DNA from: Thalassolituus maritimus | GTDB taxonomy: Bacteria; Pseudomonadota; Gammaproteobacteria; Pseudomonadales; Oceanobacteraceae | NCBI GenBank assembly: GCA_913019975.1 | Contig: CAJWBH010000007.1 | Coordinates: 62,001 to 126,000 of the forward strand | Length of the DNA stretch: 64,000 nucleotides | Reading direction: 5' to 3' | Shown: piece after piece, positions 451-19,812 of the stretch | Numbering within the stretch: position 1 is the stretch's first letter | Layout: the number at the start of each line of letters is the position of its first letter | Program-made: the position numbers and the translations under genes | Notes under the pieces: generated by a model | The model's database searches: none | What the model saw: the letters and a program-made list of their open reading frames with translations, nothing else | Told to the model about the DNA's origin: nothing

Positions 451-2181
451 TCAGACCAGTCGTTCGTAGAGCAGGCCGAGAACTAATATCAGTAAGATAA
501 AAGAAACCCCTTGCCAGAACCTGACCGGATCTCGCTCCATCACCGGTGGGCGTGATTTCTGAAGGTAGACTGAATTCGGATTTCTCAGATCATAAATAAA
601 TTCAGCCGGTTCTTTGTAGCGCATCGCTCGTTTAGGGTGGACCGCCTTTTTAATCGCCTCATCAACCCAGACGGGAATAGCACGTCCGCAACTTCGCACA
701 GAGGTGTAGTGCAGTTTATTCAGGTCCTTACGTTTGGTGATGCGGGCGACATCTGAGCCGTACGGTAAGCGCCCGGTCAGTAGTTCGTAAGTAATTGCAC
801 CGAGAGCGTACACATCGGATTCTGTAGAGCCCTGTGCTCCCAGAAAATATTCCGGGGCGGAGTATTGAGCCGTGCCAAGTAACGTCAGGCGCTCGAGCGG
901 TGTATCTATTTCGGTGATGCCTGCTACCTGCGTCGAGCCAAAGTCCAGAATTCGCACGGTGCCATCATTGCCGATCATTAAATTATCGGGTTTAAGGTCC
1001 TGATGCAGCATTTCCAGGCGGTGAAAGGCCTGAACGCCACGGGCGGCCTGTTCCATAATTTCCCGGACCTGTTCGAGGGTCGGCTCCGGATGATCACGCA
1101 TCCACTGGTCAAGTGTCTGGCCTTCGATGTATTCGGTGGTGACGTAAATAAAGTTGCGCACCCGATGTGATGGACCCGGACGAACTACGTAAGGGCTGTC
1201 GATCCTTCTGGCAATCCAGTCTTCCAGCAGAAAGCGTTCAAGGTACGCCGTGTTGTCACGCAGCTCACCGGATGGCGTTTTCAGGATGAGCGTTTGTTCT
1301 GTCTCTGTGTCTTTTGCAAGATACACATGGCTGCGTGGGCTGCTGTGTATCTTGCGCAGAATGTTGTAGCCGTCGAACTCATCGCGCGCCTTCAGAGAGG
1401 GAGGAAAGGGGAGCTCGGTGAGCTGTTGATGAACGTCCTCTTTATTCTGATCAAGCAGGTGATCAATACGTAAAATCTGGATCGTCAGGTTGTCGTTACT
1501 GTTGTTATCCCGTGCGGCTTCGAGGATTTCTCGTGCGGCACGATCAAGATCCGATGAATATTTATTGATCGTACTGATGACCAGCTCGTCGTTGACGAAC
1601 TCATAAATGCCATCGGTAGCACTGATAAAGATATCACCGACATTGACTGAGAGAGACAGATAATCAATTTCTAGCTGGGTATCCATGCCTAAGGCACGGG
1701 TCAGGTAGCTTTGGTCTTCGGAGGTATAAAAACGATGGTCTGTTGTCAGTTGTTCCAGCTGTTTATCTGCAACACGGTAAACACGGCTGTCACCGACGTG
1801 AAAAATATGGGCGGTACGGGATTTAATAACTAACCCATTAAAGGTGCAGACATAGCCTTTATTCGGGTCGTAGCTTCTCAGGTTTCTTCTGGCTTGTGCA
1901 TGTAGCCATGAGTTTGTTGCCTTCAGTACCCTTAGCCCCGAGGTCTTTACTGTCCATGCTTCTGAGGTGCTGAAATAGTCACTGAGAAAGCTCTGAACAG
2001 CGGTAGCGCTGGCGTCATGACTGACGTTGCTGCTACTGATGCCATCGGCGAGAGCCATGGCTACGCCTTTGCTTTCGAGAAGAGGGAGCGTTGGGGTGTG
2101 AACGGCGTGAAAGTCCTGGTTAATGGCTTTGACGCCTTTATCGCTGCATTGCCCTGTGCTGACTTTCAGCTGCTCTGACAT
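451..2181 (-). CDS. Fused PP2C protein phosphatase / Ser-Thr protein kinase, membrane anchored
   Basis: This 576-residue protein has a PP2C phosphatase domain at about 8-243 (ADGISSS, HVGDSRVY, TRALGM, SATDGIYEF, DNLTI). A eukaryotic-type kinase domain follows at about 270-520 (LILK lysine, HQDLKPDN catalytic loop, LDFG, SAPEY, SDVYALG). One membrane helix lies at about 553-575, which puts both enzymes in the cytoplasm. The glycine loop is degenerate (KIHSSPRSHVYLA has no glycine) and HRD reads HQD, so kinase activity is not certain. I chose the ATG at 2181 over the one at 2226 because GAGG lies 7 bases upstream of it. The gene follows the nitrite-type transporter on the same strand. Pseudomonas carries a similar fusion beside its nitrate/nitrite assimilation genes, so a role in controlling nitrogen uptake is inferred. 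Confidence 0.88.
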   Translation of the reverse strand: MSEQLKVSTGQCSDKGVKAINQDFHAVHTPTLPLLESKGVAMALADGISSSNVSHDASATAVQSFLSDYFSTSEAWTVKTSGLRVLKATNSWLHAQARRNLRSYDPNKGYVCTFNGLVIKSRTAHIFHVGDSRVYRVADKQLEQLTTDHRFYTSEDQSYLTRALGMDTQLEIDYLSLSVNVGDIFISATDGIYEFVNDELVISTINKYSSDLDRAAREILEAARDNNSNDNLTIQILRIDHLLDQNKEDVHQQLTELPFPPSLKARDEFDGYNILRKIHSSPRSHVYLAKDTETEQTLILKTPSGELRDNTAYLERFLLEDWIARRIDSPYVVRPGPSHRVRNFIYVTTEYIEGQTLDQWMRDHPEPTLEQVREIMEQAARGVQAFHRLEMLHQDLKPDNLMIGNDGTVRILDFGSTQVAGITEIDTPLERLTLLGTAQYSAPEYFLGAQGSTESDVYALGAITYELLTGRLPYGSDVARITKRKDLNKLHYTSVRSCGRAIPVWVDEAIKKAVHPKRAMRYKEPAEFIYDLRNPNSVYLQKSRPPVMERDPVRFWQGVSFILLILVLGLLYERLV

Positions 2182-2262
2182 GGTGTTGCCTCGCAGAAAA
2201 AACAGATCTGCCTGTGCAATGTGCACAGGCAGAGTGTATTGCTATCCGTCGAAGGGTAGCGA

Positions 2263-3072
2263 TTACAGAGTACGGTCGGCACTCTGACGTACGTGTGTAA
2301 AGTACAGTGGCAGAGCGACGAACACAAAACCACCGACAAGGTTACCCAGTGCGGTAGGCAGTTCGTTCCAGATGATGTAGTCCATCACAGTAAAGTCACC
2401 GCCCATGATCATTGAGAATGGGAACAGGAACATGTTGACGATGGAGTGCTCGAAACCCATGAAGAAGAACAGCATGATTGGCATCCACATAGCGAACATT
2501 TTAGAGATCGCAGAAGTAGATATCATGGCGCCAACAACACCCATAGATACCATCCAGTTGCACAGCATGCCGCGGATGAAAATAGTCAGCCAGCCGTCTA
2601 CGCCGTGCGATGCATAACCTACGGTACGTGATTCACCAATGGTTGATACTTTGGCTGCGATTGCGCCGCCGTCAGTGTTGTAGCCATAGGTCAGGATGAA
2701 AGAGATCATTACCGCAACAGACAGAGCACCCGCAAGGTTGCCGCAGAATACCAGGCCCCAGTTACGCAGCATCTGCGGAACGGTACAGCCAGGACGCTTG
2801 TCGATAATCGCCAGTGGCACCAGAGTGAATACACCGGTCAGCAGGTCGAACTTCATCAGGTAGAGCATGATGAAACCTACCGGGAACAGCACTGCCCCCA
2901 GAATTGGCGAACCACTTTTCATGGCGACGGTGATCGCGAATACAGCAGCCAGAGCCAGAATAGCCCCAGCCATAAAAGCACGGATCAACGTGTCTTTGGT
3001 CGACATGAATATCTTTTCTGCACCGCTATCCACCATTTTTGTGGCGAACTCAGAAGGCATTAAGTAGGACAT
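2263..3072 (-). CDS. Formate/nitrite transporter family (FNT) channel
   Basis: This 269-residue polytopic inner-membrane protein has about six hydrophobic helices and the FNT fold signatures LFPVGFIMLYLMKFDLLTG and FEHSIVNMFLFP. The family carries formate, nitrite or hydrosulfide as a pentamer. The neighbouring kinase/phosphatase and the nitrogen-type leader favour nitrite uptake for assimilation, as in the NirC or NasA contexts. No nirBD or nasA gene is inside the window. RBS GAGGAAAT precedes the ATG. The gene is first in a two-gene unit with the kinase/phosphatase 81 bp downstream. Expression is predicted to depend on the sigma-54 promoter and ANTAR-type leader described separately. Substrate choice cannot be settled from sequence, so no symbol is given. 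Confidence 0.88.
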   Translation of the reverse strand: MSYLMPSEFATKMVDSGAEKIFMSTKDTLIRAFMAGAILALAAVFAITVAMKSGSPILGAVLFPVGFIMLYLMKFDLLTGVFTLVPLAIIDKRPGCTVPQMLRNWGLVFCGNLAGALSVAVMISFILTYGYNTDGGAIAAKVSTIGESRTVGYASHGVDGWLTIFIRGMLCNWMVSMGVVGAMISTSAISKMFAMWMPIMLFFFMGFEHSIVNMFLFPFSMIMGGDFTVMDYIIWNELPTALGNLVGGFVFVALPLYFTHVRQSADRTL

Positions 3073-3109: not shown

Positions 3110-3167
3110 TAAAATGAAAAACGGCGTCGCCCCAGTCGGTGATTTACCGATGGGTGTCGACGCCGTT
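3110..3167 (-). terminator. Intrinsic terminator inside the leader of the FNT gene
   Basis: On the minus strand AACGGCGTCG (3167-3158) pairs perfectly with CGACGCCGTT (3129-3120). An inner stem TCGGT/ACCGA encloses a 5-base loop, and the hairpin is followed by TTTTTCATTTT. It lies upstream of the FNT start codon, so it would stop transcription before the gene unless it is prevented from folding. Its 5' arm overlaps the second hexaloop hairpin of the leader (3172-3157). Confidence 0.8.
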
Positions 3168-3208
3168 ATCGAATTTTTGTCTGATTTTTTGAGAGCCGTC
3201 GTTGGCTC
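3120..3208 (-). promoter_or_regulatory. Dual-hexaloop ANTAR-type antiterminator leader RNA
   Basis: The predicted leader RNA carries two short hairpins with six-base loops. The first is GAGCC-AACGAC-GGCTC (3208-3193), and the second is TCGAT-AACGGC-GTCGA (3172-3157). They are separated by a 20-base A-rich linker. Both loops have A at position 1 and G at position 4, the conserved bases of the RNA target of ANTAR-domain antiterminators (NasR, NasT, EutV). The second hairpin shares ten bases with the 5' arm of the following terminator, so the two folds exclude each other. Binding by an ANTAR protein would therefore allow read-through into the transporter and kinase genes. No ANTAR gene lies in the window. 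The structure is seen in the sequence; the regulator is inferred. Confidence 0.78.
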
Positions 3209-3219
3209 ACTCAGGACTC

Positions 3220-3235
3220 TGCAACCGTCGTGCCA
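3220..3235 (-). promoter_or_regulatory. Sigma-54 (-24/-12) promoter of the FNT-kinase unit
   Basis: The minus strand reads TGGCACG-ACGG-TTGCA, an exact match to the sigma-54 consensus TGGCACG-N4-TTGCW with correct spacing. The predicted start, about 12 bases after the -12 GC, falls near 3209. That is immediately before the first leader hairpin, so promoter and leader fit each other. Sigma-54 itself (rpoN) is encoded at 7479-9038. Confidence 0.88.
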
Positions 3236-19177: not shown

Positions 19178-19812
19178 GATCCTCAAGGTTTATAGCTGCC
19201 TTCGGCAGGGAGGTTTTTTTGGCTGCCGCCGAGTTCCTATGCCCTTGTTGGGGGACCTTGTCCCCCGGGCGGGCGGCCCATCCCCCTGCTTTCGCGCTTT
19301 CTGGGCCGTGAATCCGATATTTACTGGCTTTTCCGGCAACCGGCTCCGGCGGGCATCCATGCCCGTATGGAGCCTCGCTCGGCATCCTGCCTCACGTTGC
19401 CTACAAAGCTGGCGTAAATCCCGGCGGCCCCAGAGGCGCATTGCCATCCCGCGAAACCCTCTCACAATATGAAAACCGATGTCGCCGCGAAGCGCTGATA
19501 TAACCCGGCTTGTGATGCCCCCGCAGGATCGCAGATATCGATGGGTGCTAACCGGCAGGACGCCGGTTAAGCCTGCCCGCGGCCATGGATGGCCGCTGCA
19601 GGCGTGCCCCAATCGGTATCAAGAGACAAGGATCAGGGCATCACGCCGGAAAAGGGGATCGGAAGGGGCCTGCCCCTTGCAGAAAAAACAGAGGCTTGGC
19701 GGCAGCCAAAAAAGTCTCCCTGCCGAAGGCAGCTACTCCCAACAAGGGCATAGGTACCCGGCGGAAGCCAGACACGTGCCTCTGCCGAAGGCAGCTATAA
19801 ACCTTGAGGATC
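19178..19812. repeat. Mosaic repeat segment between hisD and hisC bounded by a 31-bp inverted repeat
   Basis: A perfect 31-bp inverted repeat (19178-19208 and 19782-19812) bounds a 635-bp segment without a credible gene. The core CTGCCGAAGGCAGCT occurs at 19720-19734 and 19782-19796, and inverted at 19194-19208. CCCAACAAGGGCATAGG at 19738-19754 is inverted at 19236-19252. A perfect hairpin TAACCGGC-aggac-GCCGGTTA lies at 19549-19569. The nested direct and inverted copies suggest repeated insertion or rearrangement of a short non-autonomous element. No transposase, and no target duplication I can be sure of, was seen. Confidence 0.8.

Follow-up and report, generated by a model that had tools for sequence, protein, structure and literature searches.

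Which signal decides whether a transporter gene of Thalassolituus maritimus and the kinase gene behind it are transcribed? The question is raised by positions 3110..3208 of the window, the whole stretch of 64,000 nucleotides analyzed here, which the first-pass annotation had taken for an ANTAR-type antitermination leader in front of a nitrite-type transporter and a kinase/phosphatase. On the minus strand, a sigma54-type core is followed by the hairpin P1, the overlapping structures P2 and terminator, a U-run, an FNT gene and the gene of a PP2C phosphatase-kinase fusion (PPK) (Table 1).

Table 1. Coordinates of the leader, the adjacent genes and the related elements elsewhere in the genome (window positions unless a locus, L, is given).
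Feature	Position	Strand	Details and basis
Sigma54-type promoter core TGGCACGACGGTTGCA	3220..3235	-	-24 TGGCAC, -12 TTGCA; sequence match
P1 hairpin GAGCC[AACGAC]GGCTC	3193..3208	-	Hexaloop 3203-3198; sequence and covariation
P2 hairpin TCGAT[AACGGC]GTCGA	3157..3172	-	Hexaloop 3167-3162; U-G closing pair; sequence and covariation
Intrinsic terminator hairpin	3120..3167	-	5' arm AACGGCGTCG 3167-3158, 3' arm CGACGCCGTT 3129-3120; sequence, fold, alignment
Terminator T-run	3117..3121	-	First two T paired with the 5' arm; sequence
FNT-family channel/transporter, 269 aa	2263..3072	-	PF01226
PPK, PP2C phosphatase and Ser/Thr kinase fusion, 591 aa from GTG	451..2226	-	Profile match and motifs by eye
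NasR gene, 423 aa	L004:8988-10259	-	NIT and ANTAR; another contig of the window's genome
Second hexaloop-pair leader, before nasC	L273, about 8821	-	P2 loop ATTGGC
PP2C-kinase paralogue directly after an MFS gene	L273:13859-15619	+	Further non-FNT copies in other genomes at L275, L277 and L363-L400; 32 of all 41 directly after an MFS gene

The two hexaloop hairpins of the first-pass annotation (AACGAC and AACGGC, with A1 and G4 in both) were recovered from the minus-strand sequence, separated by a linker of 20 bases. P2 does have ten bases in common with the 5' arm of the terminator (3167-3158), as had been stated; this arm is made of the P2 loop and four bases of the P2 3' strand. The terminator and its U-run also lie, as described, before the FNT start codon (T-run at 3121-3117, ATG at 3072). 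Absent from that description was the sigma54-type core just upstream of the leader, a pure sequence match to TGGCAC-N5-TTGC. This pattern is the consensus of sigma54 promoters and, at the distance that separates such promoters from their start sites, the leader transcript is expected to begin at about position 3209, at the foot of P1. The full leader RNA folds as P1 plus terminator with -43.3 kcal/mol (z -6.9; none of 200 shuffles as good), and a transcript ending after P2 folds as P1 plus P2 with -14.5 kcal/mol (z -2.3; 7 of 200 shuffles as good). Because ten bases are common to both, the two states are mutually exclusive.

Taken alone, the site is only moderately surprising, since simulated sequence also yields detector matches. 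A strict detector (both stems at least 5 bp, terminator at least 8 bp, T4) gave one match in the real 64 kb and one in 60 Markov-simulated windows; a relaxed version (4 and 6 bp) gave one real match against a simulated mean of 0.35 and a maximum of 2. Such a chance match, the position of DarP upstream on the same strand and a strong terminator fold that exists whatever the regulator NasR does are what could be expected of an unregulated terminator of the DarP transcript, which runs in the same direction, with a hexaloop pair formed by accident. This explanation is nevertheless highly improbable. A separate terminator-like repeat is found behind DarP, about 280-310 bases before FNT, in two relatives (G027 and G030), and the leader stays with FNT in others, such as G017, G038, G040 and G041, where NasR, not DarP, was found next door. 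A sigma54-type core also stands between DarP and the leader, and the stems of the leader covary.

A search of relatives speaks even more directly to chance. With stems of at least 4 bp and a terminator of at least 8 bp, a setting that misses leaders with interrupted stems, 19 matches were obtained in the loci of 33 relatives (795,614 strand-bases, window excluded). All of them lie in front of FNT and none was found elsewhere in these loci, which makes the leader firmly more than a chance pattern. The 19 matches represent 14 distinct loci; five of them are additional pairings in which the promoter core serves as first loop.

To look for compensatory changes in relatives had been proposed from the outset, and a loss of the A1/G4 loops in close relatives had been named as counterevidence. 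In an alignment of 18 leaders (alignment A1), hexaloops and stems are kept with compensatory changes; G037 was left out because G035 has the same core, as were G043, G014, G015 and G020, which have no strict A1/G4 pair. The FNT fragment of G002 was excluded from the family counts. In P1 and P2 together 93.3% of the cells are paired, and seven of the ten pairs changed on both sides (four of five in P1, three of five in P2), a value reached by 4 of 500 shuffles. Both-side changes occur in 34 cells, compared to 2 to 8 in slid controls and a mean of 10.1 in shuffles, none of 500 reaching 34. The 'further pair types' measure for P1 and P2 is no better than shuffles (118 of 500 reach it). All 18 rows have A1, A2 and G4 in each of the two loops; since the rows were chosen for A1 and G4, only the invariance of A2 is independent evidence. 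In G043, which is not among these rows, the P1 loop starts with G instead of A1.

The terminator is 91.6% paired, with both-side changes in three of ten pairs and in 8 cells. Counted in one register, at least eight of its ten pairs are formed in 16 of 19 leaders, and a T5 run is present in all 19. G040 and G041 form 10/10 pairs in a register shifted by three; G043 is unpaired in both registers counted and has an 11-bp terminator in another one. In the 19-row alignment A3, which includes G043, column 15 is a base of the P2 3' strand that finds a partner within P2 in 19/19 rows and within the terminator in 15/19, a double partnering as expected if both structures matter. The leader is preceded by a promoter core matching the search pattern in 17 of the 19 relatives with P2. 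This persistence of terminator pairs, shifted or not, and of the T5 run is difficult to reconcile with hairpins that act otherwise, for example on translation, and whose ANTAR likeness is inherited and no longer used in the genus. Such a role is improbable, even though G014, G015 and G020 (L107, L108, L112) keep P1 and P2 by eye with no clear U-run and the regulator lacks the off-switch residues known from Klebsiella oxytoca (see below). These three leaders possibly use a different stopping mode or have decayed. A possible pairing partner of P2 is seen further down in each of them.

A covariance model (R1) was built from 18 leaders, the window leader among them, for which reason its score of 4.3e-16 at the window is not independent. 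R1 matches with E values of at most 1e-9 were obtained in front of 19 of the 33 full-length FNT genes of the family, own gene included. Eighteen of these leaders built the model and the nineteenth (G037) has the core of G035, so that independent support lies elsewhere. The R1 match of G043 is weak, as are those of G014 and G015. Among 80 named loci, R1 was found in front of FNT in 11, three of them from genomes used in the model and eight not; the latter include Marinomonas, Neptuniibacter, two Amphritea, a Marinobacterium and two Paraglaciecola. Matches occur in 28 genomes, of which only some were examined for their neighborhoods, and at two distant loci, G293 and G183, the leader likewise precedes FNT and PPK.

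The regulator was sought in the genome of the window, as suggested by the first-pass annotation, and an ANTAR gene of the NasR type was found. Its product has a NIT domain (176 bits) followed by an ANTAR domain (71.6 bits), and its best solved relative is K. oxytoca NasR (4akk, E 1.9e-55). No other ANTAR protein of this genome, which is 99.9% complete, passes the Pfam cut-off of 27.3 bits; a second place reached 12.7 bits. Two arginines, R340 and R366, are reported to be needed for RNA binding in K. oxytoca NasR (Goodson 2020, PMC7496416). Both are kept, together with K341, in 17/17 aligned NasRs (own included), N373 is kept in 13/17, and W362 is replaced by Y in all 17. Alanine changes at the NIT residues E191 and R193 render that protein constitutive (PMC7496416). 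The off-switch residues E191, R193 and Q194 are not kept (A, Q and D in the own NasR) and vary among the 17 proteins, so the off-switch may differ from that of K. oxytoca; these residues are a feature studied in one protein and do not define the family. A1/G4 hexaloops, P2-terminator overlap, covarying stems and a genomic ANTAR protein are all present, and the leader is very probably a member of the ANTAR dual-hexaloop class.

NasR and FNT are also connected by gene order and by co-occurrence. The NasR gene adjoins FNT in nine relatives, right upstream in six (G017, G020, G038, G040, G041, G043), upstream with an intervening open frame of 160 codons in G014 and G015, and between two FNT genes in G018. 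Among the FNT genomes of the family, an ANTAR protein was found in 22/22 with a leader versus 5/11 others (Fisher p 4e-4), or in 19/19 versus 8/14 when only strong leaders are counted (p 0.003); among named genomes the figures are 10/10 versus 26/38 (p 0.048). Kinship is ignored in all three values, and G020 was counted as leaderless. The named genomes come from 50 of the 80 loci, picked by hand and including all 11 with R1, of which 48 were searched (L258 and L209 out). All six family FNT genomes without ANTAR are without leader, two of them being incomplete (G024 71%, G006 89%).

The type of ANTAR protein is less strictly coupled to the leader. Leaders are also present in genomes where the ANTAR open frame has only 206-261 codons (G028, Neptuniibacter, Paraglaciecola, Amphritea, Marinobacterium) and the leader is therefore not specific to NasR. 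It could then be an ANTAR target that answers to another protein or signal, for example a NasT-type regulator. For the window this is an improbable alternative, given that in its genome the Pfam cut-off is passed by the NIT-ANTAR protein alone. No leader was found in four FNT genomes that have only a NasT-sized ANTAR frame. A leaderless sigma54-type core, located 60-88 bases before the start codon, is present in all four of these genomes and in five of the six FNT loci of ANTAR-less genomes, as if the attenuator had been gained or lost as a module.

A second leader was encountered at the nitrate assimilation genes. The own nasC gene is divergent from nirB and has in front of it a hexaloop pair and a terminator, together with a sigma54-like core. 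It encodes an assimilatory nitrate reductase-like protein that reaches 441 bits with NCBIfam NasC, less than the cut-off of 1100, and the best match, Fdh-alpha, is also below its cut-off. A scan of 17 nirB-upstream stretches, 13 of them with nasC, returned a nasC-ward leader in 10/13 loci with nasC beside nirB (own included) and in 0/4 without it. The P2 loop ATTGGC is identical in all ten, and a promoter-pattern core accompanies seven. The regulon of the window's genome thus probably comprises at least two leaders. Toward nirB no match passed the filter in the 17 loci; a leader on the own nirB was dropped, although a sigma54-like core can be seen there by eye, as can a weak hexaloop pair that has no terminator.

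What would be controlled by the leader of the window is a channel and a kinase. The FNT protein is a clear member of PF01226 (221.3 bits against a gathering score of 34.6) and is found 99% identical in Thalassolituus maritimus and an Oceanospirillaceae MAG. It remains below the NCBIfam cut-offs for FocA (TIGR04060, 135.7/290.1 bits), fnt (TIGR00790, 152/232.3) and NirC (NF008595, 53.6/293); the name NirC was rejected, and the earlier designation as a nitrite-type transporter is putative. The true start of PPK may be the ATG at 2181. Its translation contains, by eye, a hydrophobic C-terminal segment and motifs that we take to be K, HQD and DFG of the kinase and DG/GDS/DG/ND of the PP2C domain.

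FNT has PPK close behind it in 31 of 32 full-length loci of relatives in the family, the other one ending at a contig edge, and in 75 of 77 named loci (3 of the 80 were too short to tell). That it directly follows FNT everywhere was rejected: a small open frame of 147-155 codons intervenes in G004, G006, G007 and G009, and the starts of FNT and PPK are more than 1,300 bases apart in 7 of the 75 named loci. Another PPK copy of the own genome, with 38% identity, is located in the nas cluster, where an MFS transporter gene immediately precedes it. Of 41 PPK copies in the family that do not belong to FNT (38 loci plus own, G035 and G016; a G010 copy at a contig end was left out), 32 have an MFS gene directly in front, 1 has another PPK there and 8 have neither (G014, G015, G020, G021, G023, G024, G025, G026), and the generalization that PPK always follows a transporter was discarded. 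These counts establish that the transporter-PPK order recurs with two unrelated folds, in part behind an ANTAR leader. Since PPK stands just behind FNT or MFS at most loci examined, it may act on the adjacent transporter.

The covariance search in Rfam that had been recommended gave a divided answer. The best match of the window leader is the narK RNA (RF03032), with 29.6 bits in a 1,001-base search (E 0.0019), below the gathering score of 43.2 that defines membership; a separate search listed no narK match. Sub-threshold narK matches were returned for 10 of 20 loci sent to Rfam (E 0.001 to 0.28). In 293 genomes of the order, 24 narK matches were collected (L308-L331), 15 of them at or above the gathering score; two of the 24 are FNT leaders. 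At the model start a TGGC-type core is present in every match (ending in TGA in L319), as are a C-loop-G pattern for P1 and the P2 loop pattern, both loop patterns being sought with G4; A1 of P2 is present in 22, and a run of T4 or longer follows in 22. Both hairpins have an A1/G4 loop on an unbroken stem of 4 bp or more in 14 matches, one hairpin does in 9 and neither does in 1 (L330). P1 is the sole helix of the RF03032 consensus, which also takes in apparent promoter DNA. With core and both loop patterns in its matches, the narK RNA is best read as a sigma54-like promoter plus an ANTAR dual-hexaloop leader, which would give a simple mechanism to a family whose model draws one hairpin. The literature searched gave no paper on the narK motif, which has reportedly been described.

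The neighborhoods of the narK elements fit this reading. Of 14 loci fetched (13 from f21, 1 from f37), ten have an MFS gene and then a PP2C-kinase gene behind the element, with nirB, nasC and a gene for a TP-methylase further on in nine of these ten. In four of the 14, an ANTAR-like match ends at most 300 bases upstream of the element, and in six it lies elsewhere in the stretch; none was found in the other four stretches. A similar order of leader, transporter and kinase is thus seen in other bacteria with a transporter unrelated to FNT. Among the 20 loci sent to Rfam, four (L134, L138, L139, L141) have a match to Pseudomonas sRNA P11 (RF00625) over the leader, with 26-32 bits where the gathering score is 70. 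Either P11 may have a relationship to the ANTAR leader class, or the match may only reflect a common hairpin-terminator layout. Elsewhere in the window, a TwoAYGGAY RNA (RF01731) was detected at 19497-19657 on the plus strand with 43.6 bits, just above its gathering score of 43.

The original proposal of ANTAR-type antitermination is supported by the NIT-ANTAR gene and the covarying hexaloop hairpins, and judged from these sequence data the leader very probably mediates NasR-controlled transcription antitermination of FNT-PPK. Transcription would start at the sigma54-type promoter, probably driven by NtrC under nitrogen limitation. Without signal, the nascent RNA would fold P1 and then the strong terminator that uses the P2 sequence, and transcription would stop about 45 bases before the FNT start codon. 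In the presence of nitrate or nitrite, the NIT-ANTAR protein is predicted to bind the hexaloops of P1 and P2, to hold P2 and to prevent the terminator, and FNT and the downstream PP2C-kinase would then be made, by analogy with NasR of K. oxytoca. The same protein would also read the leader before nasC. A physically separate transporter-kinase unit would hereby be added to the likely NasR regulon.

The PP2C-kinase may in turn tune the transporter, or its coupling to the nitrogen state, by reversible phosphorylation. A tentative generalization, to which we give somewhat less than even chances, is a cassette for nitrogen oxyanions in which an ANTAR leader precedes an FNT or MFS gene and a PP2C-kinase that toggles the transporter by reversible phosphorylation, the narK element being the same RNA class. 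Nitrate would then be sensed twice, first by way of the RNA and then through the protein. The transporter-kinase pair itself appears to occur both within Pseudomonadaceae-like nas operons (f21) and, in genomes of gamma- and epsilonproteobacteria, as stand-alone FNT-kinase units, and the leader is found on only part of these pairs. For the widespread PP2C-kinase family, the transporter encoded next door becomes a candidate partner. If the kinase acts on it, Ser/Thr phosphorylation would control nitrite/nitrate uptake in many marine bacteria; no report of such control was found in the literature on nitrite transporters with kinases, and the literature on PA1782/PA1783 yielded no title on the function of that kinase.

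The first-pass annotation knew of no description of this leader at an FNT-kinase unit. None was found in the literature searched on NasR, NasT and ANTAR leaders, nasF, narK and nirBD; the supplementary tables of Ramesh 2012 may list one. ANTAR RNAs already known precede nitrate and nitrite transporter genes, among others (Ramesh et al., 2012, PMC3369931), so that at most the FNT-kinase unit is new. The FNT-PPK leader is a well-supported candidate for a new target of a known mechanism.

Among the closest known systems is that of K. oxytoca, where nasF has a sigma54 promoter. The leader and NasR of this species were reportedly studied by Chai and Stewart in 1998 and 1999. Likenesses are a NIT-ANTAR regulator, two A1/G4 hexaloop hairpins, nitrate antitermination (predicted here) and a context of nitrogen assimilation (Goodson 2020, PMC7496416). 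In contrast, the target there is the nasFEDCBA operon and not FNT plus PP2C-kinase, and here the regulator gene lies on another contig and the NIT off-switch contacts are not conserved. In K. oxytoca, SELEX gave a C:G closing pair, whereas the P2 loop of the window is closed by U-G. The eut leaders bound by EutV and the ANTAR dual-hexaloop class in general share the paired A1/G4 hexaloops and a P2 that overlaps the terminator stem (Ramesh 2012, PMC3369931; PMC8934654); EutV is a two-component response regulator for ethanolamine and NasR a one-component protein. For nasABGHC of Paracoccus, an ANTAR regulator has likewise been proposed to act on leader hairpins and the operon has a nitrite transporter, NasH; there, NasT/NasS take the place of NasR, the transporter gene is a member of the nas operon, and no kinase/phosphatase gene is named in the part of the source consulted (PMC5424462). 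The narK RNA (RF03032) shares with the leader the sigma54-like core and both loop patterns and differs by the MFS gene that takes the place of FNT before PPK in 10 of 14 narK-type loci.
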